From Sphaerochaetaceae bacterium (GTDB lineage: Bacteria > Spirochaetota > Spirochaetia > Sphaerochaetales > Sphaerochaetaceae): DNA of 47,343 nucleotides. A model generated the notes under the pieces. The model was given only the letters and a program-made list of their open reading frames with translations, searched no databases and was not told the DNA's origin. Positions 11,159-27,518 of this stretch are shown here, one piece after another. Location: contig JAQVSP010000005.1 in NCBI GenBank assembly GCA_028700425.1, positions 1 through 47,343 of the forward strand, given 5' to 3'. The position numbers were made by a program, and so were the translations under genes. The first letter of the stretch is position 1, and each line of letters starts with the position of its first letter.

Positions 11159-12898
11159 TTGAAGAAAGCCTTATCTGTTTTGACTGTTGTCATCATTGCA
11201 TCATGTCTTTTCGCTTCCCAGTGGGAGGTCGGCGAGACTGGACCTGCAGGCGGCATCGTATTCCATAGCTGGAGCGAGGGCTCCAGCCTGCATTATCTAG
11301 AAGCTTCACAAGCCTTCGAGGCAGAGGGCCTGTGCTCTTCAGTTGCGTTGCCGGTCGCAACCGATTCATTCATCGGCTCTGGGCTTTCCAACAGCCTGCT
11401 TCTTCTTGAAGCCGAGGCAAAAGGCGCTGCAAGCGCCATAAGCACCGCCTCAGAGGCCACTGTCGGCTCCATGGACGATTGGTACATTCCGTCTCTTGAT
11501 GAGCTGAAGAAGCTTTATGAAGTCATCGGAAGCTCATATGAGAAGCAAGGATACTGGTCATCCACAGAAGCCTCCACAGCCTTTGCCTACGGCCTTGATT
11601 TCACCGACGGAACTGAATTTGCATCCACAAAATGGACGCCTAATGCCTTTATCGCCGTCAGGGAGTCTGTGGTCGAGGAAGCTGCAGGCAGCCATGATGT
11701 AAGCGTCAGCGTGGTTTCAGAGGGCTCGAACGTTCAGATAAGCCAGGTCACTGACCGGATCATGATCACCGGGCAGATCCTCCCAGAGGATTTCTCCTTT
11801 GTGAACAAGGTCAGCTTCTTGACTAATACAGTCAATTACGCCATCGACTTCATCAACACCTTGGCAATGGTCGACAGCGATTATGCAGCCTCCATCCCTC
11901 TCTCAGAGGAAGTCAACAGCATGATCACCGCCGCCAACAACTTCCTATGGTCAGACCTGCAGGAAGGCCTGCAGCTTATGACTGAGTACCTTGCCTACAT
12001 CTATGGGGTAGGAGAGGCCCCGGTTCTTTCCGAGCCTTTCAACCCAGTCGATGTGAGCCTTCTCAAGGAAGACCAGTGGTACACCTCGGCCCTCATAGCC
12101 TTCAAGCAGATCTACACCGCCATAAGCGAAGCCACTGCCCAGGATTTCGAGACGCTGGACATCAATGATTACCTTATAGCCCAGCAGGATGCTCTCTACA
12201 ATGCCTACAACGAGCTTTTCAATGGCCTTTACACACAGATGATGGAAGCCTACTCAGCCTTCGAATGGGCACCTGAGCCGGAAGTGGAGCCTACCCGCTA
12301 TCTCATGTTTCTCTGTCTCAACAACCAGGATGAGATCCTTGCAGACCCAGCTATCCGAAAGATTCTCTTCTGGGGCGCTGATCGCCAGGCCATCATAAAT
12401 GCCGCATTAGGTGCAGAGTCCACTGGAAAGCCTGCATGGTCGCTGAACTATGATGAAGCCAGCGAGCTGTCCAATGACATGGACAAGGCCAAGGCCTATA
12501 TAGCCCAGGCAGCACAGCTGCCGACCCTGGATTTCCTGTACCTTTCAGACAGCCAGGAAGGCCTTGCCCAGACAGTGGGCAATATAATCACATCTACAAC
12601 CGGCATTTCCTTCAACTATGTCGGCGTGACCAGCGAGGAGTACTACAAGGCCCTTGAGGCCGGGTCTTATGATGTAGCTCTTTTCTTGACAGACCTTACC
12701 CAGAAAGGCTTTCTTGAGGGAACCTTCGAGTCATCCAGCACCTACAACTTCGGCCATGTCCAGGACGAGGCCTATGATGCCATCATAGCCGAGGCAGCTA
12801 TGGCTCAGGACGCCCAGCAGCAGGAAAAGCTCTACAAGCAGGCTTCCGATCACCTGCTGGAGGCAGCCGCCTTGGTTCCGCTTTTCTTCTTCTACTAG
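11159..12898 (+). CDS. Exported DUF1566 (Lcl-type) domain fused to an oligopeptide-binding-like domain
   Basis: The protein has 579 residues. The start is TTG, six bases after GGAGGA. A signal peptide (KK then VLTVVIIASC) could be a relaxed spirochaetal lipobox ending at Cys16, or be cut after LFA. Residues about 20-170 form a DUF1566 domain: the GETGPAGGIVF motif, YLEAS, DDWYIPSLDELKKLY and YWSST. Residues about 378-579 match the C-terminal lobe of family 5 solute-binding proteins: FLCLNNQDEILADPAIRKIL with a DRQAI motif, repeated LEAGSYDVALF and a final hydrophobic ALVPLFFFY. The middle is helical and unassigned. No ABC transporter permease is nearby, so it may sense or bind a ligand at the cell surface. 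Function is unknown. Confidence 0.72.
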   Translation: MKKALSVLTVVIIASCLFASQWEVGETGPAGGIVFHSWSEGSSLHYLEASQAFEAEGLCSSVALPVATDSFIGSGLSNSLLLLEAEAKGAASAISTASEATVGSMDDWYIPSLDELKKLYEVIGSSYEKQGYWSSTEASTAFAYGLDFTDGTEFASTKWTPNAFIAVRESVVEEAAGSHDVSVSVVSEGSNVQISQVTDRIMITGQILPEDFSFVNKVSFLTNTVNYAIDFINTLAMVDSDYAASIPLSEEVNSMITAANNFLWSDLQEGLQLMTEYLAYIYGVGEAPVLSEPFNPVDVSLLKEDQWYTSALIAFKQIYTAISEATAQDFETLDINDYLIAQQDALYNAYNELFNGLYTQMMEAYSAFEWAPEPEVEPTRYLMFLCLNNQDEILADPAIRKILFWGADRQAIINAALGAESTGKPAWSLNYDEASELSNDMDKAKAYIAQAAQLPTLDFLYLSDSQEGLAQTVGNIITSTTGISFNYVGVTSEEYYKALEAGSYDVALFLTDLTQKGFLEGTFESSSTYNFGHVQDEAYDAIIAEAAMAQDAQQQEKLYKQASDHLLEAAALVPLFFFY

Positions 12899-13187: not shown

Positions 13188-16100
13188 ATGGGCGATAGGA
13201 TGAGACCAGTTCCGTTCTTGGAGCTTCTTTCAAGAATGTTTGGGGAATACAAGAAAGATGGATCGATGTTTGGCTATTCGGAGAATCTCTGGTTTGCGGA
13301 TGACCGCAAGCTCAATGCTAGGATCTTCAGTCAAGGCTGCTCAATGCCTCTTGGGCCTGCGGCCGGCCCGCATACCCAGCTAGCGCAGAACATAATCACC
13401 AGCTATCTTGCTGGAGCTCGCTTCTTTGAGCTCAAGACTGTCCAGATCATGGACAGTCTTGAGATTGAGAAGCCATGCATCGATGCTCGCGATGAGGGCT
13501 ATAACGTGGAGTGGTCCACTGAATACACCCTGCCAAAGGCCTTCGATGAATACCTAAAGGCCTGGATAATCGTAAGCTTTTTGGATGCCTTGACTCACAA
13601 GGGAGAGCCTGATGGCGACTCCTTCATCTTCAACATGAGCGTAGGCTACAACCTTGAGGGGATCAAGAGCCCGAAGATGCAGACCTTCATCGATTCTATG
13701 ATGGATGCCTCTCGCTCGCCCCTGTTCGAGACCTATATTCAGGACCTTTCCATAATGATACGCGATGGCGAGATGCTTGAAGGCACCCCATGGGAGAAGC
13801 TCGGAAAGAAGCTGGAGGCCCTTCCATCCAGGATCAGCAGCCATATCTGCTCACAGGTCACTCTTTCGACTATGCACGGATGCCCTCCCACAGAGATTGA
13901 GGCAATCTGCTCCTATATGCTCAAGGAGAAGGGCATTGACACCTTCGTGAAGCTCAATCCGACCCTTCTTGGCTATGATGAGGTCCGAAGCATACTTGAT
14001 GAGACCGGCTTTGGCTATGTCTCTCTCAAGCGTGAGACCTTTGAGAAGGACCTGCAGTATGCCGATGCAATACAGATGCTCAGCAGGCTGCTTAAGCTTG
14101 CAGGCAAGCAGGGCAGGTGCTTCGGCGTCAAGCTCACCAATACGCTGGGCTCTGCAAATGACCAGGGCTTCCTTCCTGGAAGCGAGATGTACATGAGCGG
14201 AAGAGCTCTTCTTCCAATCTCTACAACAGTGGCAAGCAGGCTTTCAAGCGAGTTCGATGGAAAGCTTCCCATCTCATACAGCGGCGGAGCCAACTACTAC
14301 ACCATAGGCGACCTCTTTGAGGCTGGAATAAAGCCGATAACCGTTGCAACCGATATGCTCAAGCCGGGCGGGTATGGCAGGCTTGCCCAGATGGCAGGGC
14401 TTCTGGCCTCGCGCAAGGCTTCCTTCAGGACCACCGAGGTCGATGTGAAGGCAATTACAGACCTGGCGCTCAATGCTCGCAATGCAATCTATCAGCAGAA
14501 GGCCTTCAGGGGTACGAGCAAGGTTTCGACAGGCCAGAAGCTTGACCTGTTCGATTGCTTTGAAGCCCCATGCCAGGCTGCATGCCCGATTCACCAGGAC
14601 ATCCCTGACTATGTAAGCTTCACCAGCGAGGGCAAGTATGCAGAGGCCCTGTCCTTGATCTACATGGACAACACCCTGCCTGGAATGACCTGCTCCATAT
14701 GCGACCACAAGTGCCAGGACAACTGCGCCAGGATGGACTACGAAGGCTGCAGCGTCCAGATCAGGGCCATGAAGAAGAAGGCCTTTGAGAAGGGAAGAGC
14801 TGAGTACATGCGCCACTTCGAGGACCTTGATGAGCCATCTGAGACCAAGGCGGCAGTGATCGGGGCCGGCCCTGCAGGACTTTCCGCAGCATCCTTCCTT
14901 GCCCGTGCGGGCTTTGATGTGACCATCCTTGAGAAGGAGGACAGCGCTGGCGGCGTGGTCGCCCATGTCATTCCATCCTTCAGGATCAAGGAGGAGAAGT
15001 ACCTCAAGGACATTGAGTTCGTGCTTCGCCAGGGCGTTAAGATCGTCTATGGCGTCACCTTGTCTCAGGTCAGTAAGCTAAGTCTTCAGAAGCAGGGCTT
15101 CAAGTACCTCTTCTACGCCATCGGGTGCACAAGGTCCAACAGCCTGGGCATAGAGGGTGAGAATGTGCTTGGCTCTCTTCAGTTCCTCCAGGCCTACCGC
15201 AAGAACCCGGATTCAATGAATCTTGGAAAGAATGTTGTAGTCTGCGGAGGCGGAAACACAGCCATGGACAGCGCAAGAAGCGCAAAGCGGTCCTTCGGCG
15301 TGGAATCCGTGACCGTGGTCTATCGCAGGACTGCCGACCAGATGCCGGCAGCCAGGGAGGAGTATGAGCTTGCCCTCAGCGAGGGGATCAAGTTCATGTT
15401 CCTTGCAAACCCCAAGTCCTTCAAGGGCACTGATCTTGAGCTTGCTGTGATGGAGCTTGGCGACAAGGATGCCTCCGGCCGTCCAAGGCCGGTGGACACC
15501 GGAAAGACAATCACAATCCAGGCAGACACACTCATCAGCGCTATTGGCGAGAGCTCAGATGCCTCCCTGCTCAAGGCTCTTGGGCTTGAAGCAGACGATA
15601 AGGGGCGCGTTGAGCTTGATGAGAGCTTCATGACCAAGGAAGAGAACGTCTATGTCATAGGCGACATGGCCAAGGGGCCTGCCACCATAGTCAAGGCCAT
15701 CGCCAGCGCCAGGGCCGCTGTTGAGAACGCCATCGACAGGGAGCTTGATTCCATAGCCTCAGATGATGATGACGACGATGATGAATGCGAGTGCTCCTGC
15801 GGCCATGATCATCATGACCATGACTGCAGCTGCCATGACGAGGAATGCCACTGCCACGATGATGAGGAAGAAGAGGAGGAAGAGGAAGTCGACATCGATG
15901 CCGAGAACCGCTTCTTCGACCAAATCAGGGTCAAGAAGGCCAATCTCAGGCCAGTGCTTGATTCCAAGGACCCAGGCTTTGAGGAAAATGAAGGCAAGCG
16001 GTGCATGGATTGCTCCTATTATTGCTGCAAGTGCGTAGAGGTATGCCCAAACAGAGCCAATGTGGCCATTGATGTCAGGGAACTGGGCATCTTCGACGAT

Positions 16101-16418
16101 GCCTTCCAGATCCTTCACCTTGATGCCTTCTGCAATGAGTGCGGCAACTGCGCAAGCTTCTGCAACCATGAAGGCCGCCCATACAAGGACAAGCTGACGC
16201 TTTTCTCAAGGATGGATGACTTCCTGGATTCTGAGAACACCGGCTTTGTGCTTGATGAAGAGAACCGCATCCATGTGCGCTATGAGAACAAGACCTATGT
16301 AGGCGATTTCTGCAATGACAGCGTGGTCCTGGACAGTGAGGTTCCCGATGAGATCGTCAAGATGATAGAGATCGTGGTATCCGATTATCCATATCTGCTT
16401 GGAAGCGTGGAGGAATAG
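13188..16418 (+). CDS. ygfK: YgfK, putative selenate reductase/purine-degradation flavoprotein with an acidic His/Cys-rich insert
   Basis: The protein has 1076 residues. An N-terminal dihydroorotate-dehydrogenase-like barrel (to about 430) has GCSMPLGPAAGPHTQL and later LKPGGYGRLAQM. A GltD-like iron-sulphur segment follows (CQAACPIHQDIPDY near 461, CSICDHKCQDNC near 502), then FAD (VIGAGPAGLSAA near 555) and NAD(P) (VVCGGGNTAMDSA near 682) folds. Two ferredoxin-type clusters close it (CMDCSYYCCKCVEVC near 939, CNECGNCASFC near 982). This is the E. coli YgfK plan (1032 aa); the extra length equals an insert at about 857-901 of Asp/Glu runs with seven Cys and seven His. YgfK genes occur with Se-dependent molybdenum hydroxylases and have been implicated in anaerobic purine/uric-acid use; its exact reaction is unsettled. 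It heads an operon with ssnA and ygeY. Confidence 0.93.
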   Translation: MGDRMRPVPFLELLSRMFGEYKKDGSMFGYSENLWFADDRKLNARIFSQGCSMPLGPAAGPHTQLAQNIITSYLAGARFFELKTVQIMDSLEIEKPCIDARDEGYNVEWSTEYTLPKAFDEYLKAWIIVSFLDALTHKGEPDGDSFIFNMSVGYNLEGIKSPKMQTFIDSMMDASRSPLFETYIQDLSIMIRDGEMLEGTPWEKLGKKLEALPSRISSHICSQVTLSTMHGCPPTEIEAICSYMLKEKGIDTFVKLNPTLLGYDEVRSILDETGFGYVSLKRETFEKDLQYADAIQMLSRLLKLAGKQGRCFGVKLTNTLGSANDQGFLPGSEMYMSGRALLPISTTVASRLSSEFDGKLPISYSGGANYYTIGDLFEAGIKPITVATDMLKPGGYGRLAQMAGLLASRKASFRTTEVDVKAITDLALNARNAIYQQKAFRGTSKVSTGQKLDLFDCFEAPCQAACPIHQDIPDYVSFTSEGKYAEALSLIYMDNTLPGMTCSICDHKCQDNCARMDYEGCSVQIRAMKKKAFEKGRAEYMRHFEDLDEPSETKAAVIGAGPAGLSAASFLARAGFDVTILEKEDSAGGVVAHVIPSFRIKEEKYLKDIEFVLRQGVKIVYGVTLSQVSKLSLQKQGFKYLFYAIGCTRSNSLGIEGENVLGSLQFLQAYRKNPDSMNLGKNVVVCGGGNTAMDSARSAKRSFGVESVTVVYRRTADQMPAAREEYELALSEGIKFMFLANPKSFKGTDLELAVMELGDKDASGRPRPVDTGKTITIQADTLISAIGESSDASLLKALGLEADDKGRVELDESFMTKEENVYVIGDMAKGPATIVKAIASARAAVENAIDRELDSIASDDDDDDDECECSCGHDHHDHDCSCHDEECHCHDDEEEEEEEEVDIDAENRFFDQIRVKKANLRPVLDSKDPGFEENEGKRCMDCSYYCCKCVEVCPNRANVAIDVRELGIFDDAFQILHLDAFCNECGNCASFCNHEGRPYKDKLTLFSRMDDFLDSENTGFVLDEENRIHVRYENKTYVGDFCNDSVVLDSEVPDEIVKMIEIVVSDYPYLLGSVEE

Positions 16419-16421
16419 GGC

Positions 16422-17747
16422 ATGACAACAGTTTTCACCAATGCAACCGTTATTCAGACATCCTCTCCAGTTGACGTCATAAGAGGCGTTGATGTGGTTG
16501 TCGAGGGCTCCTTGATCAAGGCTGTCGGCAAGAATGCAGCATCTTCAGTGAAGGCTGACAAGGTAATAGACCTTAAGGGCAAGCTCCTTATGCCAGGCTT
16601 CGTATGCTCCCATCACCATTACTATAGCGGGCTGTCTAGGGGCATGCTCATCATCGCAGGCCCTCAGACTGACTTCATCCAGGTTCTCAAGGAATGGTGG
16701 TGGCGTCTTGACAGGGGCCTTGACGAGGAATCCTGCTACTACAGCTCGCTCATATGCTCCATTGATGCCATTGCAAGCGGAACCACTAGTGTGGTCGATC
16801 ATCATGCAAGCCCCTCCTTCATAGACGGGAGCCTTGATGTCATAGCCAAGGGCATGGAGGAGGTCGGGATCAGGGGCACCACCTGCTACGAGGTCACTGA
16901 CCGCAACTTCGGCTTGAAGGAAGTAAAGGCAGGAGTGGATGAGAACATCCGCTTTGCCAAGGCCTGCGATGCCAAGGGCGGCCTGGTCGGTGCCATGATA
17001 GGCGGCCATGCCCCCTTCACGATTCCCGATGAAGGGCTGGATATGATGTCAGAGGCCTGCAGGTCCACCGGCAAGGGCATGCACCTGCATGTAGCTGAGG
17101 ACAAGTACGATGCAGTCTACAGCCATCATTTCCATGGCAAGGACATAGTCGACCGCCTTGACGAGCACCATCTGCTCGGCGAGAAGACTCTTCTGGTCCA
17201 TGGGCTTCACCTCAACGAGCACGAGATAGAGCTTCTCAACGAGAGAGGCTGCTTCTTCGCTCACAACGCCCGAAGCAACATGAACAATCATGTGGGCTAC
17301 TGCAGAGGCCTGCGAGAGGTCAAGAAGCTGGTTCTTGGAACCGATGGCTGCGGGGGCAACATGCTTGAGGAGATCAAGCTTGCCTTCTTCAAGCACAAGG
17401 ATGAAGGCCTTCCTTGGTGGCCGGCAGACTTCGTTTCTGCCCTTAGCCGCGGCAACGAGCTTCTGCAGTTCAGCTTTCCAGGAACAAGGCTTGGAAGAGT
17501 GGAGCCAGGATACAAGGCTGACCTGGTTGTCATGGACTACCGCAGCCCAACCCCGCTGGCCAGGGAGAACCTTTGCTCCCATATCGTATGGGGCATGAGC
17601 AGCAACGCGGTTGAGTCAGTCATGGTGGACGGCAGGCTTGTCATGGAGTCCCGCAGCTTTCCAGGCCTTGATGTCAATGCAATATACGCCAAGGCAAGCG
17701 AGGTAGCCAAGGCGCTTTGGAAGAAAGTCGATAGGATAGCCCCATAG
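16422..17747 (+). CDS. ssnA: SsnA-type aminohydrolase (amidohydrolase superfamily)
   Basis: The protein has 441 residues and is cytoplasmic. It is a metal-dependent amidohydrolase with the HxH-type motif CSHHHYYSGL near residue 63, HLHVAEDKYDAV (third His), LVHGLHL (fourth His) and GTDGCGGNM (catalytic Asp), plus the family C-terminal GYKADLVVMDY. Full-length similarity and synteny with ygfK identify SsnA rather than guanine deaminase or AtzA-type enzymes. In the bacterial purine-degradation model it hydrolyses a ring or imine intermediate downstream of the molybdenum hydroxylases; the exact substrate is not proven. It starts three bases after the ygfK stop, inside a GGAGGAATAGG ribosome-binding region. 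Confidence 0.92.
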   Translation: MTTVFTNATVIQTSSPVDVIRGVDVVVEGSLIKAVGKNAASSVKADKVIDLKGKLLMPGFVCSHHHYYSGLSRGMLIIAGPQTDFIQVLKEWWWRLDRGLDEESCYYSSLICSIDAIASGTTSVVDHHASPSFIDGSLDVIAKGMEEVGIRGTTCYEVTDRNFGLKEVKAGVDENIRFAKACDAKGGLVGAMIGGHAPFTIPDEGLDMMSEACRSTGKGMHLHVAEDKYDAVYSHHFHGKDIVDRLDEHHLLGEKTLLVHGLHLNEHEIELLNERGCFFAHNARSNMNNHVGYCRGLREVKKLVLGTDGCGGNMLEEIKLAFFKHKDEGLPWWPADFVSALSRGNELLQFSFPGTRLGRVEPGYKADLVVMDYRSPTPLARENLCSHIVWGMSSNAVESVMVDGRLVMESRSFPGLDVNAIYAKASEVAKALWKKVDRIAP

Positions 17748-17762: not shown

Positions 17763-18971
17763 ATGGACATTTACAAGAGGATTCTTGCCAAGGCGGCAGA
17801 ATACAGGGATTACACAGCTCAGAATCTTTCCAAGCTGGTGAAGACAAGAAGCTATTCATCATGCGAGGAGGATGTGTGCAAGCTCATCGTCAGCCTTTGC
17901 AAGGAAGCTGGCTTCGATGAAGTTCGCATCGACGGGCTGGGAAGCGTGATAGCCCGAATCGGACATGGGTCTCGCTCCATTGCATTCGATGCTCATATCG
18001 ACACAGTCGAGGTCGGCAACATGAAGAACTGGAAGTTCGACCCCTTCTGCGGAGATGTCAAGGACGGCCTTGTCTATGGGCGCGGAACAAGCGACCAGAA
18101 GGGCGGAGCTGCATCAATGATAACCTGCGGACGCATCCTCAAGGACCTTGGCTATGATAGGGACTACACAGTCTACTTCACCTTCACCGTCATGGAGGAG
18201 GACTGCGATGGAATGTGCTGGAAGTACCTGATAGAGGAAGAAGGCTTCAAGCCTGATCTCGTCGTATCCACTGAGCCGACCAGCTGCAGGCTTTATCGCG
18301 GACATCGCGGACGCATGGAGATTCGCATAATACTTCGTGGCGTCAGCTGTCATGGAAGCGCTCCGGAGCGCGGAGTCAGCGCAGCCTACAAGGCCGCTCG
18401 CGCAGCCCTAGCCATCGAGAAGCTCAACAGCGAGCTTCAGCCGGATGAGGAGCATTTCCTTGGAAAGGGAACAATCACCGTCAGCCAGATGGATGTAAAG
18501 GGACCTTCCCAGTGTGCAGTAGCCGACTATGCAATGATATATTGCGACAGGCGCCTTACCTGGGGCGAGGATGCCGAGCTTGCCATAGCTCAGGTCCGCA
18601 AGGCCGTGAGCGAGGCTACAGGCGACTGCCCAGACTCATTCATTGTCGAGATGCCGAACTACGAGAAGGTGGGCTGGACCAAGAAGGACTACCATCAGGA
18701 GCTCTACTTCCCAACCTGGAAGCTTGACAAGGACCATATGCTTGTCAAGGCTGGCGTGAAGGCTTATGAGGAGCTCTACAAGAAGGCTCCTGTCGTGGAC
18801 AAGTGGACCTTCTCCACGAACCTTGTAGCCACCACCGGTCGCCATAAGATTCCAGCCATTGGATTTGGACCTGGCGATGAGGCTCAGGCGCATGCCCCTA
18901 ACGAGATCACAAGGGTCGACGACCTGGAGATCTGCAGCGCCTTCTATGCTGCATTGGCATACGAGATCTAG
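17763..18971 (+). CDS. ygeY: YgeY-type M20 metallohydrolase
   Basis: The protein has 402 residues and belongs to the M20 deacylase/peptidase family: FDAHIDTVEVG (first zinc His and base Asp), YGRGTSDQKGG (bridging Asp), VMEEDCDG (catalytic Glu-Glu pair), a lid domain starting around residue 185 with RGVSCHGSAPERG, and a C-terminal FGPGDEAQAHAPNE with the last zinc His. E. coli YgeY, once called a Se-metabolism hydrolase, is part of the same neighbourhood and is proposed to cleave an N-carbamoyl or ureido intermediate of purine breakdown. An AAGGAG site precedes the ATG. It is the last gene before the hairpin at 18981. Confidence 0.92.
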   Translation: MDIYKRILAKAAEYRDYTAQNLSKLVKTRSYSSCEEDVCKLIVSLCKEAGFDEVRIDGLGSVIARIGHGSRSIAFDAHIDTVEVGNMKNWKFDPFCGDVKDGLVYGRGTSDQKGGAASMITCGRILKDLGYDRDYTVYFTFTVMEEDCDGMCWKYLIEEEGFKPDLVVSTEPTSCRLYRGHRGRMEIRIILRGVSCHGSAPERGVSAAYKAARAALAIEKLNSELQPDEEHFLGKGTITVSQMDVKGPSQCAVADYAMIYCDRRLTWGEDAELAIAQVRKAVSEATGDCPDSFIVEMPNYEKVGWTKKDYHQELYFPTWKLDKDHMLVKAGVKAYEELYKKAPVVDKWTFSTNLVATTGRHKIPAIGFGPGDEAQAHAPNEITRVDDLEICSAFYAALAYEI

Positions 18972-19054: not shown

Positions 19055-21199
19055 ATGGACATCAAGGATCCTATCAAGAGAATGGATGCCTTGGCCAAGG
19101 CCAGGGGAGAGACGAAGTATCTCAGCGATTATCGTTTTGAAGGCGCTCTGTATTCCAGGATGCTGCGCTCATCGATACCCAGAGGCCGAATAGTCGATAT
19201 CAAGCTGCCAGCCCTGCCCGAGGGCTACCGGCTCATAACCTACAAGGACATCCCAGGCAAGAACGCCCTGCAAATGATCACTGCAGACTGGCCGTGCTTT
19301 GCAGAGACTGATGTAAAGTTCGTCGGCGAGACCATAGGGCTGCTTGTAGGCCCGGATCGCGAGCTGCTGCAGAAGCTGTTCGACCAGATCGAGGTTGAGT
19401 ATGAGGCCCAGGAGCCTGCAATAACAATCGCAGAAGGCCTTGCCTGCAAGGGCGGAGCCTTCCTCAATGGCAACAACGTCCATTGCAGCCTGTCGCTGCA
19501 GAAAGGCGAGGACATAGAGGCTGTTTTCAGCAGGGCCTATAGGATAGTCGAGCAGGAGATCACCACAGGCTTTCAGGAGCATGTCTATCTTGAGACCAAC
19601 GCAGCAGTGTGCACCAAGGAGGATGGACGCTTTGTCATCTATGCCTCTGCCCAGTGCCCCTTCTACATCCGCAAGTCCGTCTGCGGGCTTCTTGGCCTGA
19701 AGCCAGATGACATTATTGTCCGCCAGACAGCTACAGGCGGGGCCTTTGGGGGCAAGGAGCACTTTCCTGATGTGCTTTGCGGCCCGCTTCTTGTTGCCTG
19801 CTATGTCACTGGAAAGCCAGTGAGGCTGGTATTCGGACGCGAGGAGGACATTGCCAACAGCGTAAAGCGCCATCCTTCAAGAGTTCGCTTCAAGACTGCC
19901 CTGGACAAGGATGGAAACATTCTCGGAATGGACAGCGAGGTGGTCTACAATGTCGGAGCCTACCTGGCCAGCTCCTTTGTCGTGCTTCAGAGAGGCTGCT
20001 TCCATGTCACAGGCTGCTATAGCTTCCCAAGCGAGAGGACCAAGGGCATCGGGGTGGCGACCAACACCTATCCATCATGCGCATTCAGGGGCTTTGGAGC
20101 TCCTCAGACCCTGTTTGCCATAGAGACTCATATGAATTACCTGGCAAGCCTGCTTGGAAAGGATCCTCTTGAGTTCAAGAGGAGGTACCTGATCAAGAAG
20201 GGCGAGCTGACCATAACAAGCGGGCCGATCATAGAGGATGTAAAGCTTGTCCAGATGCTTGAGCAGGTGCTCAAGGCCTCTGGCTATGCTGAAAAATCCA
20301 AGGCCTATGCAATAGGAAGCGGAAAGGGCATTGGACTAGCCTTCTACAATCATGGAGGCGCCTTCACCGGAAACGGGGAATCGGCTATCATCAAGGCCCA
20401 TGTGAAGCTTGTAAAGCATCTAGGCGGACCTGTGGAGATTCTCTGCGGCCAGACTGAGATGGGACAGGGCTTCCAGACTGCCTTGCGAAAGATCGCAGCC
20501 CAGGTGCTTGAGATTCCGCCAGAGACAGTCATCTATGACAACCCAGACACCTCAAGAGTGCCGGACAGCGGCCCAACAGCGGCTTCAAGAAGCACCATGG
20601 TTGTGGGGAACCTTGTCTACAAGGCTGCCCTGGACATGAAGAGGCGCATCGATGCAGGCGAGGATGGCTTTGAGGTTGAGACCGTGTATGAGCATCCAGA
20701 AGGATACCCATGGGATCAGTCGACCTTCCAGGGCGTAGCCTATCTTGGCTATGGCTGGGGCGTATGCGCTGTGGAGGTCGAGATCGACAAGCGCACAGCC
20801 GAGCCGGTTGTCAAGGGAATCTGGACAAGCCATGACGTTGGCCATCCAATAGATGAGCTCATCTGCCATGGCCAGGTCAATGGCGGCGTGGTTCAGGGCA
20901 TAGGCTGGGCTTCAACCGAGCTTCTGCAGAACATCGGAGGCCACTTCAAGCAGACAAGCCTTTCTGACTACATCATCCCAACATCGATGGATACGCCAAC
21001 GATGAGCGTAGAGTATGTTGACAATCCATATCCATGGGGACCCTTTGGAGCCAAGGGCATGGGAGAGCTGACCTTCAATGGAAGCGCAGCTGCCTACGTA
21101 GATGCTGTGTCTAGAGCCATCGGAAAGACCATAAATGCCATCCCAATCCCTTCTGAGGTCATCATGGACTATATGCTCGACAAGGAGGCATCAAGATGA
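19055..21199 (+). CDS. xdhA: Xanthine dehydrogenase-family molybdopterin-binding subunit
   Basis: The protein has 714 residues (E. coli XdhA 752). Molybdenum-hydroxylase marks are VGETIGLLV near the N terminus, GGAFGGKEHFPD for cofactor binding, the conserved Arg in CAFRGFGAPQ that positions the purine, GQTEMGQGFQTALRKIAAQ, and the base-supplying Glu in GPFGAKGMGE. It hydroxylates purines such as hypoxanthine/xanthine, passing electrons to the 2Fe-2S and FAD subunits encoded next. GAGGAGG precedes the ATG. Six genes from here to 27518 overlap stop-to-start, so they are one translationally coupled operon. The substrate is predicted from family and neighbours only. Confidence 0.92.
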   Translation: MDIKDPIKRMDALAKARGETKYLSDYRFEGALYSRMLRSSIPRGRIVDIKLPALPEGYRLITYKDIPGKNALQMITADWPCFAETDVKFVGETIGLLVGPDRELLQKLFDQIEVEYEAQEPAITIAEGLACKGGAFLNGNNVHCSLSLQKGEDIEAVFSRAYRIVEQEITTGFQEHVYLETNAAVCTKEDGRFVIYASAQCPFYIRKSVCGLLGLKPDDIIVRQTATGGAFGGKEHFPDVLCGPLLVACYVTGKPVRLVFGREEDIANSVKRHPSRVRFKTALDKDGNILGMDSEVVYNVGAYLASSFVVLQRGCFHVTGCYSFPSERTKGIGVATNTYPSCAFRGFGAPQTLFAIETHMNYLASLLGKDPLEFKRRYLIKKGELTITSGPIIEDVKLVQMLEQVLKASGYAEKSKAYAIGSGKGIGLAFYNHGGAFTGNGESAIIKAHVKLVKHLGGPVEILCGQTEMGQGFQTALRKIAAQVLEIPPETVIYDNPDTSRVPDSGPTAASRSTMVVGNLVYKAALDMKRRIDAGEDGFEVETVYEHPEGYPWDQSTFQGVAYLGYGWGVCAVEVEIDKRTAEPVVKGIWTSHDVGHPIDELICHGQVNGGVVQGIGWASTELLQNIGGHFKQTSLSDYIIPTSMDTPTMSVEYVDNPYPWGPFGAKGMGELTFNGSAAAYVDAVSRAIGKTINAIPIPSEVIMDYMLDKEASR

Positions 21200-21657
21200 A
21201 GATTGATTTCAATCTCAACGGAGTGCAGGTGAGCGTGGACAAGGATCCTCTTAGCCGCTTGATAGATGTGCTTCGAGAGGATTTCGGACTCACAGGCACA
21301 AAGGAAGGCTGCTCTGAAGGAGAGTGCGGAGCCTGCTCCGTCCTTCTTGATGGCAAGCTGGTCACAAGCTGCCTGGTTCCACTGGGAAGCGCAATAGGAT
21401 CCAGGGTTGACACCATCGAGGGCATACGCGATACCAAGCTCGGAAGCATAATAATCGAATCGTTTGCCAATGGAGGCGCGGTGCAGTGCGGCTTCTGCAT
21501 CCCAGGCATGGTGATAAGCGCCTACTGCCTTCTTTCCAGCAACCCCCATCCCACCGAGGATGAGGTCAGGCTTGCCATCAGCGGAAATCTCTGCAGATGC
21601 ACAGGCTATGACCTGATAGTGTCCAGCATCCTGGATGCTTCAAGGAGGCTCGCATGA
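21196..21657 (+). CDS. xdhC: Xanthine dehydrogenase 2Fe-2S subunit
   Basis: The protein has 153 residues and two [2Fe-2S] modules. A plant-ferredoxin-like loop holds CSEGECGACSVLLDGKLVTSC, and a helical module has QCGFCIPGM and LCRCTGY. All eight cluster cysteines are present. It relays electrons from the molybdenum site to FAD. The ATG overlaps the stop of the molybdopterin subunit by four bases and its stop overlaps the FAD subunit by four. Confidence 0.96.
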   Translation: MKIDFNLNGVQVSVDKDPLSRLIDVLREDFGLTGTKEGCSEGECGACSVLLDGKLVTSCLVPLGSAIGSRVDTIEGIRDTKLGSIIIESFANGGAVQCGFCIPGMVISAYCLLSSNPHPTEDEVRLAISGNLCRCTGYDLIVSSILDASRRLA

Positions 21658-22520
21658 ACTATGTAGCATTTTCGCTCAAGCAAGCCCTTGAGATACGCAA
21701 GGCCACAAAGGCGCGGGTCATGGCAGGTGGAACAGACCTGATGGTAAGCGCCCAGAGGGGCGAGGGCATGATGCCCCGATTTGAGGGCGACATGCTTCTT
21801 ATAAGCCATGTCGATGAGCTTCGTCACATCGGCTTCAACGCTTCTGGAGAGCTGGAGATAGGCGCCCTCTGCACAAGCGCCCAGATAGCAGGCGACTCTC
21901 GTGTCCCATGGGCCCTGAGAGCTGCTGCATCGCGCATGGGAGCGGTTGCGCTTCGAAACTGCGCAACCATTGGCGGCAACATAGCCAATGCATCCCCCAA
22001 GGGAGACCTTCCAGGCCCGCTCTACGCCCTGGATGCAAGAGTCAGGCTGCTAAGTGTTGATGGAGCGGAGGAGATGCTTGTATCAGACTTCATCCTTGGA
22101 CTCAAGAAGACCAAGCTGAAGGATGACCAGATAATAGGTGCAATCATAATTCCAAAGATGGATGAGTGGTTCGACTACATCTTCTGGCACAAGATCGGCA
22201 CAAGAAGAGCCAATGCCATAAGCAAGCTCACTGTGACCATGGCCATCAAGCTTGACCAGCAGCGCAAGATTGTAGAGGACTTCAGGCTAAGCGCCACCGC
22301 CTGCGGAGCCAAGACCAACAGAAGCCGCGAGGTGGAGAGCCTGGTGATCGGAAAGAAAGTGCAGGAGCTTGAGGACCTTGTCGCCCCTGTTCAGGAAGCC
22401 TTTGACAAGGTCATAAGCCCAAGGGCCATGCCAGTGTTCCGTCGAACAGCGACCAAGAACATGATAGCCGACTTCTTTAGTCGAGTGGCAAGGCTGCCAG
22501 AAGAGAGGAACATGGAATGA
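21654..22520 (+). CDS. xdhB: Xanthine dehydrogenase FAD-binding subunit
   Basis: The protein has 288 residues and is of the CO-dehydrogenase flavoprotein/XdhB type: the VMAGGTDLMVSAQRGE pyrophosphate loop near residue 22, and the second FAD motif RNCATIGGNIANASPKGD near 105. A C-terminal domain closes over the flavin. It takes electrons from the 2Fe-2S subunit and reduces NAD+ or another acceptor. Its stop overlaps the deaminase start (ATGA). Confidence 0.95.
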   Translation: MNYVAFSLKQALEIRKATKARVMAGGTDLMVSAQRGEGMMPRFEGDMLLISHVDELRHIGFNASGELEIGALCTSAQIAGDSRVPWALRAAASRMGAVALRNCATIGGNIANASPKGDLPGPLYALDARVRLLSVDGAEEMLVSDFILGLKKTKLKDDQIIGAIIIPKMDEWFDYIFWHKIGTRRANAISKLTVTMAIKLDQQRKIVEDFRLSATACGAKTNRSREVESLVIGKKVQELEDLVAPVQEAFDKVISPRAMPVFRRTATKNMIADFFSRVARLPEERNME

Positions 22521-23875
22521 CAGTGCTTTTCAAGAATATCTATTGCCTTATGACAGAGCCGGGGGTCACCAAGACTGGAGTCGACCTTCTTGCCAAGGAT
22601 GGCAAGGTTGCCTTCATAGGCTCCTATGAAGGCCAGGCTGACAGGGTCATCGACTGCTCAAAGCTGGTAGTCATACCCGGTCTTGTAAACACCCACCATC
22701 ACTTCTATCAGACTCTAACCAGAAACCTTCCAGCGGTACAGGACGCCAAGCTCTTTGACTGGCTTGTCTACCTGTATGAGATATGGAAGAACATAGACCC
22801 AGAGAGCGTCTACTGGTCCAGCATGCTGGCTATGGGAGAGCTTCTCAAGACGGGATGCACCTTGACCACCGACCATCACTACCTCTATCCAAGAGGCTTC
22901 TCAGCAGATCTCATGGGCCTGCAGTTCAAGGCAGCTGACGAGCTGGGAATGAGATTCTCGCCCACAAGGGGATCGATGACCTTGTCCAGAAAGGATGGAG
23001 GCCTTCCTCCAGACAGCGTAGTGCAGAGCGAGGAGGAGGTGCTTGAGGACTCTGAGAGATGCATTCAGGCCTACCACGATGGATCAGACTTCTCGATGCA
23101 TAAGATAGTCCTGGCTCCTTGCTCGCCTTTCAGCGTGACCAAGTCCACCATGCTCAAGAGCGCGCGGCTTGCAAGAAGGTACGGCGTGAAGCTTCATACC
23201 CACCTTTGCGAGACCATCGACGAGGAGGACCAGTGCCTTGCCATGTATGGAGTAAGGCCGGTTCAGCTCATGGAGGACTGCGAGTTCATAGGCGAGGATG
23301 TGTTCTACGCCCATGGCATATGGTTCAACGACCAGGAGCTGGACATACTGGCTAGGAACAAGGCTACCATAGCTCATTGCCCAGCAAGCAATATGCGCCT
23401 TGGCAGCGGGATCTGCCGCGTCAAGGAGGCTCTTGAAAGAGGCATCAATGTAAGCCTTGCAGTGGATGGATCTGCATCCAATGATTCCTCTGACATGCTT
23501 GGGGAGCTGAGGCTGGCCCTGCTCCTGCAGAGAGTCAAGCATGGCTCGGGAGCGCTCAAGGCAAAGGATGTTCTTGCAATGGGCACTGTCAATGGAGCCC
23601 GAGCCCTGGGCTATAGCAAGGTAGGGATGCTGAAGGAGGGCTGGGCTGCAGACCTGGCTGCCTTTGATGTTTCCAAGCTTGCCTACAGCGGCTCGCAGTC
23701 AGATCCTCTAGCCGCAATTCTCTTCTGCGGATATGATCATCAGAGCAGATATACAATGGTAAACGGCCGCTTGGTCGTTGACGAAGGAAGGCTGGTCGGA
23801 ATCGATGAGGACTTGCTGGCAAGGCGAGCCAATGAACAGGCCGAAAGGCTATATAGAAAAGGGGGAATCCTTTGA
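22517..23875 (+). CDS. Purine deaminase of the amidohydrolase superfamily (8-oxoguanine/guanine deaminase-like)
   Basis: The protein has 452 residues. Metal ligands are visible in NTHHHFYQTLTRN, KLHTHLCETIDEE and FYAHGIWF, with the catalytic Asp in AVDGSASNDSSDM. The LYEIWKNIDPESVYWS segment and overall length match enzymes annotated as 8-oxoguanine deaminase in anaerobes and in Pseudomonas. Its place inside the xanthine dehydrogenase operon suggests that it feeds a deaminated purine (xanthine or urate) to the molybdenum enzymes. Guanine deaminase or a related aminohydrolase activity is an alternative; the sequence does not separate them. It is distinct from the SsnA encoded in the previous operon. 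Confidence 0.83.
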   Translation: MTVLFKNIYCLMTEPGVTKTGVDLLAKDGKVAFIGSYEGQADRVIDCSKLVVIPGLVNTHHHFYQTLTRNLPAVQDAKLFDWLVYLYEIWKNIDPESVYWSSMLAMGELLKTGCTLTTDHHYLYPRGFSADLMGLQFKAADELGMRFSPTRGSMTLSRKDGGLPPDSVVQSEEEVLEDSERCIQAYHDGSDFSMHKIVLAPCSPFSVTKSTMLKSARLARRYGVKLHTHLCETIDEEDQCLAMYGVRPVQLMEDCEFIGEDVFYAHGIWFNDQELDILARNKATIAHCPASNMRLGSGICRVKEALERGINVSLAVDGSASNDSSDMLGELRLALLLQRVKHGSGALKAKDVLAMGTVNGARALGYSKVGMLKEGWAADLAAFDVSKLAYSGSQSDPLAAILFCGYDHQSRYTMVNGRLVVDEGRLVGIDEDLLARRANEQAERLYRKGGIL

Positions 23876-24642
23876 TACAGAAGCTGACAATAGCACAAAG
23901 CATAGCGCAAGCCGTGAACTGGAAGGCTCACTGCGCTGATTGCATCTACCTTTCAGGCGGGACTGAGGTCAACAGGCTTGGATCTGAAGACCATCAGGAA
24001 GGCATTTCCATCGGAAGGCTGAACATGGATGAGATCAGGATGGAAGGCTCAATGCTTGCCATCGGAGCGACAGTGACCTTCACAGAGGCCCTTGAGAGCG
24101 ACCTGGTTCCTATGGGATTGAAGCAAGCCTTGAGGCACATGGATTCCATGACAAAGCGCAACATGGCGACAATCGGAGGCAACATAGCCGCCAAGCGGGA
24201 TGATTCCTACATCATCCCAGCCCTGGTAGCCATGGATGCCAAGCTCAGCGTGATGGACCTTGACAGGTCGCAAAGCCAGATGAGCCTCTGGGATTACGTC
24301 TCAGATCCGTACAGCTCCAGGCTCCTGATCATAGACATCCTCCTTGATCCAAAGGCAAGGATAGCCAGCAGGCGCATAAGCCGTACAGCCCAGAGCCATG
24401 CAAGCATAACGATGAGCATCAGCCTTGATCCGGCACTTGCGTGTGCAGCCATAAAGGGCACAGGCATCGTCCGTCTTGAAGGTGTGGAGAAGGCCATCGC
24501 AAAGGGCCTTGGGGGCAAGGACCTTGAGAGAATCGGATCGGAGGAGCCATGCCAGGTTGTTGACGACATCCACGCAAGCGCAGCTTACAAGAGGTATCTG
24601 CTGGGAATACTGGCAGCCGACCTTGCAGGAGGACTTAGATGA
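23872..24642 (+). CDS. ygfM: YgfM-type FAD-binding subunit of a molybdenum hydroxylase
   Basis: The protein has 256 residues (E. coli YgfM 259). The start is TTG overlapping the deaminase stop (TTGA), with a GGGGG ribosome-binding site seven bases before; no ATG fits. FAD contacts are YLSGGTEVNRLG near residue 24 and MTKRNMATIGGNIAAKRDDS near 95. It is the flavin partner of the XdhD-type protein encoded next, so this operon specifies a second, complete hydroxylase distinct from XdhABC. Confidence 0.88.
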   Translation: MIQKLTIAQSIAQAVNWKAHCADCIYLSGGTEVNRLGSEDHQEGISIGRLNMDEIRMEGSMLAIGATVTFTEALESDLVPMGLKQALRHMDSMTKRNMATIGGNIAAKRDDSYIIPALVAMDAKLSVMDLDRSQSQMSLWDYVSDPYSSRLLIIDILLDPKARIASRRISRTAQSHASITMSISLDPALACAAIKGTGIVRLEGVEKAIAKGLGGKDLERIGSEEPCQVVDDIHASAAYKRYLLGILAADLAGGLR

Positions 24643-27518
24643 TCATCAATTGCACAATTAATTCCAAGCCGAGGAGCTTCGAGGTTGAGGCTCAGCAGAC
24701 CTTGAGATCCATGCTTGTCCTTGACGGGCACTTCTGCGTGAGGGACAGCGATGACTGCGAGGGCTTTGCCGGCAGCGACACCGTGCTTATCGATGGAGTG
24801 CCTGTATATGCCAACCTGGTTCTTGCAGGAGAGGTGGACGGCTGTGAGATAGTCACCCCAGACGGGCTTTCAGACAAGCGCCAGCTTACAATCGTCCAGC
24901 AGGCAATGATTGACGCAGGCATCGTCCAGAGCGCCTATAACAGCCCTGCAGCGGCCCTGCTTCTCACCTGGCTTCTCAACCGTGTCAGCAATCCAACCCG
25001 AGAGCAGATCAAGGAAGCCCTTTCGGGCATCTTCATCCGTGATGCGGGCTACGAGAACTACTACCTGGCGGTCAAGCTCGCTGTTGAGAAGATCGCAACA
25101 GGCCATTACCAGACCCAAATAGCCCCAGCATTCCGCGATGAGCTAAGGTATGTGGGAAAGACAATGGGCAAGGTTGATGGGCCGCAGCTGGTCATGGGCG
25201 AGAGAGCCTTTGTAGAGGATCGCCTCCAGGAGGGCTGCTGCACCCTGAAGATGCTTCGCTCTCCCTATGCATCGGCATACATCAGGTCCATCGACACCAC
25301 AGAGGCCGAGAAGGTCGAGGGCGTGGTGAAGATCATCACAGCCTTCAACTGCCCTGATGTCTATTACATGAGCGCAGGCCAAGGCAATCCTGAGCCCTCT
25401 CCCCATGACAGGAGACTGTTCAACTACAAGGTCCGCCATGTCGGCGACAGAGTCGCCGGAGTGGTTGCTGAGACAGCTGAGGCAGCAGATGAGGCCATAA
25501 GGCTCATAAAGGTCGAATATGAGGTTCTCAAGCCAGTATTCACAGTGGAGGAGGCCATGGCCCCAGGCGCCCCAGCGGTGCAGGGCGGAAAGGCAGTCTA
25601 CCTCTCTGGCCAGCCGGAAGGGCTGGACAAGTACAATGAGGGCTCAGATCCAAGAGAGGGCCAGATTGTCTATCCTTTCCCGCTTCATTCTGACAGCAAG
25701 CACAATGTAGCCTCCTCTGCCCATGGGGCGATTGGAGATGTGAAGAAGGGCTTTGAGGAAGCTGACATGGTCATTGAGAGGACCTATCAGACAAGCCAGG
25801 TCCAGTGCACTCCTCTGGAGACCCATATCTGCTACAGCGTGATAGACAACGGAAGGCTGACCCTGCATGCCTCCACTCAGGTGCCATGGCATCTCAGGCG
25901 CATCGTGGCCAATGTGTGCCAGATACCTGAGAACAAGGTTCACGTGATCAAGGAGCGTGTCGGAGGAGGGTATGGAAGCAAGCAGGACATCCTCGTGGAG
26001 GATGCATGCGCCTATGCCACCTGGATCACAGGCCGCCCAGTGCTCTACCACAACACAAGAGCGGAGGAGTTCTTTGCCAACTCCACACGCCACCCAATGA
26101 GAGTCACTGTCAAGATGGGAGCCAGGAAGGACGGGCGGATCACTGCCATCCAGATGGATGTGAGGGCCAATACAGGGCCTTACGGAAACCATTGCCTCAC
26201 CGTGCCTATGAACGCATGCTCGAAGACTCTTCCTCTTTTCAAGGTCGACAACATGAAGTTCGATGTGACCACCTATTACACCAATATTCCGCCAACAGGC
26301 GCCTACCAGGGCTATGGAGCCCCGAAAGGCAGCTATGGGCTGATGATGTGCATGGCTGAGCTTGCCAGCAAGCTTGGAGTGGACTATCTGGACATGGCGC
26401 TTAAGAACTGCGTCACCGAGGGCTATATGCTTGAGATACTCAAGGGCCTTGGCGAGGGCAGGGAGGGCAATGTGGTTCCTGTCGGCTCCTGCGGCCTCAA
26501 GGAGGCCATCCTCAAGGGCGCCCAGATGATTGAGTGGGGAAAGGCCCCAGTCAATGCTCTTGGTCCCGACTGGAAGATAGGCAAGGGCTTTGCCATGATC
26601 CAGCAAGGATCCGGCCTGCCAGGCCTTGATCACTCCACGGCCCTGGCCAAGATGGCCACCGATGGCACAATCATTGTCCAAAGCGGCGGAGCCGATATTG
26701 GAACAGGCCTGGATACCATCAGCGTAAAGGTGACAAGCGAGGTCCTCTGCATAGATCCTGAGTTCGTCACAGTCATAAGCGGTGATACTGACAGCGCTCC
26801 CTTTGACACTGGAGCCTATGCTTCCAGCGGAACTTTCTTCAGCGGCAATGCCTCTCTTATAGCAGCGCAGAACCTCAAGGAGAAGATCCTTGCAGAAGCG
26901 GCGCTTCAGATGGAGGAGGACAAGGACGATCTGTTGCTGGAGTACCCAGGGCAGGTCGTCTCCTCAAGGACTGGAAAGACCTTGCTGTACAAGGACCTCA
27001 TCCATACTGCTTGCTCAGGCACTGGACGCGGCCAGCTCATAGCCCAGGGCTCCTTTGCAACCAAGGCAAGCGCAGTGCCTTACGGCGCTCATTTTGCCCA
27101 GGTGGCTGTGAATGTGCGAACAGGCGAGATAAGGCTTCAGAAGTTCTATGCAATACAGGATGCAGGCACTCCTATCAACCCGGAGCTTGCACTATGCCAG
27201 ATGTATGGAGCCGCCTTGAAGTCCATCGGCCATAGCCTCTACGAGTCTATGATCCTGGACGAGAAGGGCGTTTGCATCAATGCAAGCTTCACCGATTACG
27301 GTGTGCCGATGATCGCTGAGATGCCTGAGGACTTCAAGGCTGTGCTTCTGGATGTCAACGACGCCTACGGGCCTTTTGGAGCCAAGAGCATAAGCGAAAT
27401 CGCCACAAATGGCGCAGCTCCTGCAATCGGGGTTGCAATAGCAAATGCAACAGGCGTATGGATAAAGACCTGGCCTTTCACTGCGGAGAAGGTGCTTAGG
27501 GGCATGGGCCGGTTCTAG
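24639..27518 (+). CDS. xdhD: XdhD-type molybdopterin hydroxylase with a degenerate 2Fe-2S domain
   Basis: The protein has 959 residues (E. coli XdhD 956). The first about 165 residues have the fold pattern of a [2Fe-2S] subunit, but the cluster cysteines are gone: the first loop reads DDCEGFAGSDTVLIDG, the next VQSAYNSPAA instead of QCGFCxPG, and then GIFIRDAGY instead of GNLCRCTGY. From memory E. coli XdhD has the same loss, so it is a family trait. The catalytic part shows RVGGGYGSKQD, GAYQGYGAPKG (Gln where xanthine dehydrogenases have the substrate Arg), QSGGADIGTGLDT and the active Glu in GPFGAKSISE. It pairs with YgfM and probably YgfK; the reaction on purine or urate is unproven. Confidence 0.93.
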   Translation: MIINCTINSKPRSFEVEAQQTLRSMLVLDGHFCVRDSDDCEGFAGSDTVLIDGVPVYANLVLAGEVDGCEIVTPDGLSDKRQLTIVQQAMIDAGIVQSAYNSPAAALLLTWLLNRVSNPTREQIKEALSGIFIRDAGYENYYLAVKLAVEKIATGHYQTQIAPAFRDELRYVGKTMGKVDGPQLVMGERAFVEDRLQEGCCTLKMLRSPYASAYIRSIDTTEAEKVEGVVKIITAFNCPDVYYMSAGQGNPEPSPHDRRLFNYKVRHVGDRVAGVVAETAEAADEAIRLIKVEYEVLKPVFTVEEAMAPGAPAVQGGKAVYLSGQPEGLDKYNEGSDPREGQIVYPFPLHSDSKHNVASSAHGAIGDVKKGFEEADMVIERTYQTSQVQCTPLETHICYSVIDNGRLTLHASTQVPWHLRRIVANVCQIPENKVHVIKERVGGGYGSKQDILVEDACAYATWITGRPVLYHNTRAEEFFANSTRHPMRVTVKMGARKDGRITAIQMDVRANTGPYGNHCLTVPMNACSKTLPLFKVDNMKFDVTTYYTNIPPTGAYQGYGAPKGSYGLMMCMAELASKLGVDYLDMALKNCVTEGYMLEILKGLGEGREGNVVPVGSCGLKEAILKGAQMIEWGKAPVNALGPDWKIGKGFAMIQQGSGLPGLDHSTALAKMATDGTIIVQSGGADIGTGLDTISVKVTSEVLCIDPEFVTVISGDTDSAPFDTGAYASSGTFFSGNASLIAAQNLKEKILAEAALQMEEDKDDLLLEYPGQVVSSRTGKTLLYKDLIHTACSGTGRGQLIAQGSFATKASAVPYGAHFAQVAVNVRTGEIRLQKFYAIQDAGTPINPELALCQMYGAALKSIGHSLYESMILDEKGVCINASFTDYGVPMIAEMPEDFKAVLLDVNDAYGPFGAKSISEIATNGAAPAIGVAIANATGVWIKTWPFTAEKVLRGMGRF

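Follow-up and report, generated by a model that had tools for sequence, protein, structure and literature searches.

The window analysed here, i.e. the whole 47,343-nt stretch of DNA from a gut-type spirochaete of the Sphaerochaetaceae, carries an operon for anaerobic urate breakdown that comprises genes for carbamate kinase, YgfK, SsnA, YgeY, two Mo-hydroxylase gene sets, an 8-oxoguanine-deaminase-like protein and a carbamoyltransferase (Table 1). The Mo hydroxylase genes lie 3′ of ygfK in the same operon (19055–27518). At 19055–22517, the operon contains a second xanthine-dehydrogenase-like trio (a 714 aa Mo subunit with Fe–S and FAD subunits) besides XdhD; this trio reaches the curated cut-off of no named family. 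Just upstream of ygfK (11159–12898), a protein is encoded in which a weak Lcl_C-like part is followed by a solute-binding SBP_bac_5 segment.

The YgfK protein of the window is predicted to be an NAD(P)H-dependent flavin/Fe–S yanthine reductase. According to the E. coli study (PMC12507026), YgfK reduces yanthine (2,8-dioxopurine) in a flavin-dependent manner and is active only in the presence of SsnA. This activity is established for the E. coli YgfK alone, and the role of YgfK has thereby been redefined as part of reductive urate degradation. The selenate-reductase label for YgfK is outdated.

Table 1. Features of the ygfK locus (positions are those of the window; residues are those of YgfK)
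Feature	Position	Strand	Remarks
ygfK, 1076 aa	13188..16418	+	TIGR03315 Se_ygfK 1287 bits (cut-off 835), residues 2–1071; Fer4_20 and Pyr_redox_2 domains
Acidic Cys/His-rich insert, residues 858–900	15759..15887	+	Same alignment position family-wide
Asp run, residues 859–865	15762..15782	+	GAT-type DNA repeat
Cys/His core, residues 867–890, CECSCGHDHHDHDCSCHDEECHCH	15786..15857	+	Cys and His spaced as CxC and HxH; putative metal-binding part
Asp/Glu run, residues 891–900	15858..15887	+	GAGGAA-type DNA repeat
C-terminal [4Fe-4S] cysteine motifs, CMDCSYYCCKCVEVCP ... CNECGNCASFC	16002..16163	+	Just past the insert; conserved in all full relatives
ssnA, metal-dependent amidohydrolase	16422..17747	+	TIGR03314 553 bits (cut-off 455); starts 3 bases past the ygfK stop; proposed nearest metal client
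ygeY, M20-type metallohydrolase	17763..18971	+	NF009555/TIGR03526 above cut-off; same pathway; possible metal client

The original prediction described an Asp-, Cys-, His- and Glu-rich insert between the NAD(P)-binding fold and the terminal ferredoxin clusters of YgfK. This insert is real and its runs had been counted correctly, with coordinates off by a few bases; it fills the linker that joins the FAD/NAD(P) domain to the C-terminal [4Fe-4S] ferredoxin domain. Of its 43 residues (SDDDDDDDECECSCGHDHHDHDCSCHDEECHCHDDEEEEEEEE), 25 are Asp/Glu, and the 7 Cys and 7 His all lie in the core. The chance of at least 14 Cys plus His in 43 residues is 2e-10 against the protein's own background, uncorrected for the ~1000 positions available. 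A scan of the other open reading frames of the window revealed no comparable segment, and a pattern search found CxCGHxH once in the 2.1 Mb genome, i.e. in the YgfK insert. DNA tandem repeats within the insert are confined to the Asp and Glu runs. Between the FAD domain and the ferredoxin cysteines, the linker measures 86 aa in the window's YgfK versus 46 aa in E. coli, which places 40 of the 44 extra residues of the former in the linker; the insert had been said to equal this size excess, and it nearly does. On a charge–hydropathy plot, the segment falls well within the disordered region, and single-sequence structure prediction of the window's YgfK gave a mean pLDDT of 36.

YgfK was found in 109 of the 150 related genomes searched, and 135 YgfK sequences were extracted and aligned. 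The insert occupies a single alignment site across the window's family (f1) and in the three neighbouring families f3, f4 and f17, which belong to the same class. Across these relatives it is about 25–85 aa long, contains 0–19 Cys and 0–12 His, and is acidic in every case. No Cys/His-rich linker is present in E. coli or in the 30 YgfK sequences read from the phylum to which a Clostridiales genome belongs, where linkers are short. On deeper branches within the phylum of the window, linkers are likewise short and not Cys/His-rich, and the proteobacterial sample contains one YgfK only, without the insert.

In a FastTree phylogeny of 113 sequences, built with the insert columns left out, all inserts fall inside one 85-row clade (98% support), with 10 changes between presence and absence. 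At the base of the clade, most members are rich in His and poor in Cys, which suggests that Cys enrichment probably came later. Losses include those in g14, L102, L099, most of g8, L080 and L065/L106, and the acidic linker usually stays. In the scanned loci where YgfK is without the insert, neither SsnA nor any other neighbour was seen to carry a Cys/His segment that might compensate.

Extreme inserts occur in L073 (genome G007) and L081 (G012), with 75–85 aa and 19 Cys each; in the sister genomes of G007, which share its genus, no Cys or His of the insert is left. The G005 assembly breaks within the insert (L077 on contig C5 and L178 on C34), which indicates that low-complexity stretches of this kind can go unnoticed in draft assemblies. 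In L032 (G045:C1:938293-941508), from a near-complete relative, YgfK is interrupted by one in-frame TGA near residue 541, which may reflect a pseudogene, a sequencing error or recoding.

The length and precise sequence of the insert drift fast, and several lineages are without Cys/His. Codon changes were counted in 30 independent close pairs, using a uniform-score alignment that gives no bonus for Cys/His. Ratios of synonymous to nonsynonymous changes are 32:14 for Cys, 30:31 for His, 51:123 for Asp and 74:129 for Glu (Fisher p = 6e-6 for Cys + His versus Asp + Glu). Equal-length ungapped pairs give 8:0 for Cys + His versus 12:25 for Asp + Glu (p = 6e-4). With an alignment blind to Asp/Glu/His/Cys identity, the counts are 23:70 for Cys and 25:92 for His, and most of the contrast with Asp + Glu is gone; such an alignment misaligns by design and its counts are a lower bound. 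Compared with shuffles, 53 cores are enriched in CxC (z = +12.6) and HxH (z = +10.8) and depleted in CxxC (z = −9.6) and CC (z = −4.3), where z ignores shared ancestry. D/E8 tracts of other proteins in 13 genomes contain 5 Cys in 862 residues, all confined to two segments that are apparently in wrong frames. The codon bias, the CxC/HxH spacing and the scarcity of Cys in other acidic tracts together argue for selection and not for neutral repeat drift: judged from these codon counts, the Cys and His of the insert are under purifying selection, a result that depends on the alignment. It had been proposed that a lack of Cys/His conservation would point to neutral drift, and this applies in part: exact positions vary among relatives, and composition and spacing are retained. 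An extra Fe–S cluster of the CxxC type is disfavoured by the depletion of CxxC in the cores.

Neutral or slippage-driven repeat drift finds some room in the wide length range, the (HD)n expansions of the L022 insert and the DNA repeats that encode the Asp/Glu runs. It is nevertheless very unlikely in view of the codon and spacing tests, the retention of the insert in a single clade over many genera and the Cys/His core of the window, which is not a DNA repeat. Alternatively, the insert might do no more than tether the ferredoxin domain by a long, flexible stretch of acidic residues, with Cys and His as passengers. Lineages without Cys/His do retain an acidic linker of 25–37 aa (L027, L033, L041, L065 and L080), and the disordered character of the segment would suit a tether. 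However, Cys and His are better conserved than Asp and Glu within the same segments, their spacing is non-random and other acidic tracts are without Cys, which makes a tether alone improbable. As a minimum function, the flexible tether suggested earlier is supported by the persistence of the acidic linker where Cys/His are lost.

Metal binding, as originally envisaged, fits the conservation of the insert within lineages, the apparent purifying selection on Cys/His and the CxC/HxH spacing; a role in nickel handling is disfavoured, HypB being absent from the genome. The related proposal that the insert delivers nickel, selenium or sulphur to the downstream Mo hydroxylases fares worst and appears extremely unlikely. 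These hydroxylases are encoded in the same operon and SelD is encoded in the genome, but HypB is absent from the window's genome and from 20 of the 24 family relatives listed. Moreover, SelD is present in genomes without the insert (G006 and G013) and was not found in the insert-bearing drafts G012 and G092, some of the genomes surveyed for HypB and SelD being incomplete drafts. Delivery of Ni and Se is thus disfavoured by the absence of HypB and the independence of SelD from the insert. In addition, E. coli runs the pathway without an insert, and the role of YgfK is redefined in PMC12507026.

Similar segments are known from other systems. The tail of SlyD binds as many as 7 Ni(II) ions and differs from species to species; like the YgfK insert, it is a disordered, species-variable His/Cys/Asp/Glu segment attached to a folded enzyme (PMC7055735). 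The insert agrees with this type in composition and charge–hydropathy, a likeness in working principle only. In SlyD, the segment is a terminal tail on an FKBP prolyl isomerase, whereas the YgfK insert is internal to a flavin/Fe–S reductase; Pfam/NCBIfam matches of the window's YgfK are flavoprotein and Fe–S domains only, with no FKBP prolyl isomerase domain. Unlike the SlyD setting, no Ni enzyme maturation system was found in the window's genome. The E. coli YgfK belongs to the same enzyme family and pathway and also has SsnA as a neighbour (PMC12507026), but its shorter linker contains no Cys and one His. HypB and CobW/COG0523 metallochaperones have a loop or tail with an acidic stretch rich in His, and the CobW protein of a related genome (L169) has a near-identical CSCGHCHEHAHHHEEGHE segment. 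In these proteins, however, the stretch is found on metal-transferring GTPases, whereas YgfK is not a GTPase and has no P-loop GTPase domain among its Pfam matches. Metallothioneins and CooJ-type metal stores are also dense in metal-binding Cys or His, and differ in being separate small proteins or other domains.

Besides YgfK, a search of related genomes for CxCGHxH returned the CobW-family GTPase (L169), P-type metal ATPases (L177 and L180) and the tail of a TPR protein. The CobW GTPase and the P-type ATPases are recognised metal proteins, which supports a metal-binding reading of the segment. The TPR protein is widespread in this spirochaete family and has a C-terminal CxCGHHH-type tail (L157, L158, L159, L167, L176, L183 and L225; L244 in the window's own genome, G000:C194:3976-5148) that is as variable as the YgfK insert. 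It ends in SHFDHHHHEEECGCCDEEE in the window's genome, and its tail holds 14 Cys and 34 His in G013, where YgfK is without the insert.

We favour, at a probability of about 0.5 for the reading as a whole, that the insert is an intrinsically disordered, lineage-specific module within the linker of a YgfK that is normal in other respects, a module that would bind metal, most likely Zn(II), and serve as a local reservoir chiefly for SsnA. Set among Asp/Glu residues, the CxC and HxH pairs would take up several divalent ions of soft or borderline character, and Zn(II) would probably be held loosely and exchangeably, in the fashion of the SlyD tail. The reservoir would supply metal-dependent hydrolases made and working beside YgfK. 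SsnA, whose reaction would pull that of YgfK forward, may be the first recipient, and YgeY is another possible client. Zinc was present as ZnCl2 in the YgfK–SsnA and HyuA assays, and CoCl2 in the YgeY assay, described in PMC12507026, which does not prove that Zn is the native metal. The ssnA gene adjoins ygfK in relatives with or without the insert, and its presence beside insert-free ygfK (L185, L186, L027 and L033) indicates that the insert is not required for SsnA. The zinc reading also has against it that exact Cys/His positions are not conserved and that whole genera (g14 and, in part, g8) have lost them.

The main rival is that the insert protects or feeds YgfK's own Fe–S clusters, either by scavenging Cu, Zn or Cd that displace iron or by storing Fe(II) for repair. 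This would account for an insert in cis on YgfK rather than on SsnA: the segment directly precedes the ferredoxin domain and its exposed C-terminal clusters, and its many Asp/Glu could hold Fe(II). However, YgfK homologues outside the clade share the cluster motifs and have no insert, and we regard this explanation as unlikely, if the strongest of the alternatives. Returning to the zinc reservoir, the proposition that YgfK acts as an in-cis zinc store loading its partner hydrolase SsnA, and thereby couples metal supply to purine catabolism in one polypeptide, is doubtful at present.

The consulted part of the E. coli study (PMC12507026) makes no mention of such an insert in YgfK; our literature search was not exhaustive. 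Chaperones and transporters are known to carry disordered tails that bind metal. YgfK preparations of the type described here may carry metal that confounds Fe–S and activity assays. With ~10 gains or losses on one tree and an unchanged neighbour gene, the insert provides a clean natural experiment. If a conserved metal-binding module does sit in this catabolic flavoenzyme, the buffering of metal would be tied to the anaerobic breakdown of urate.
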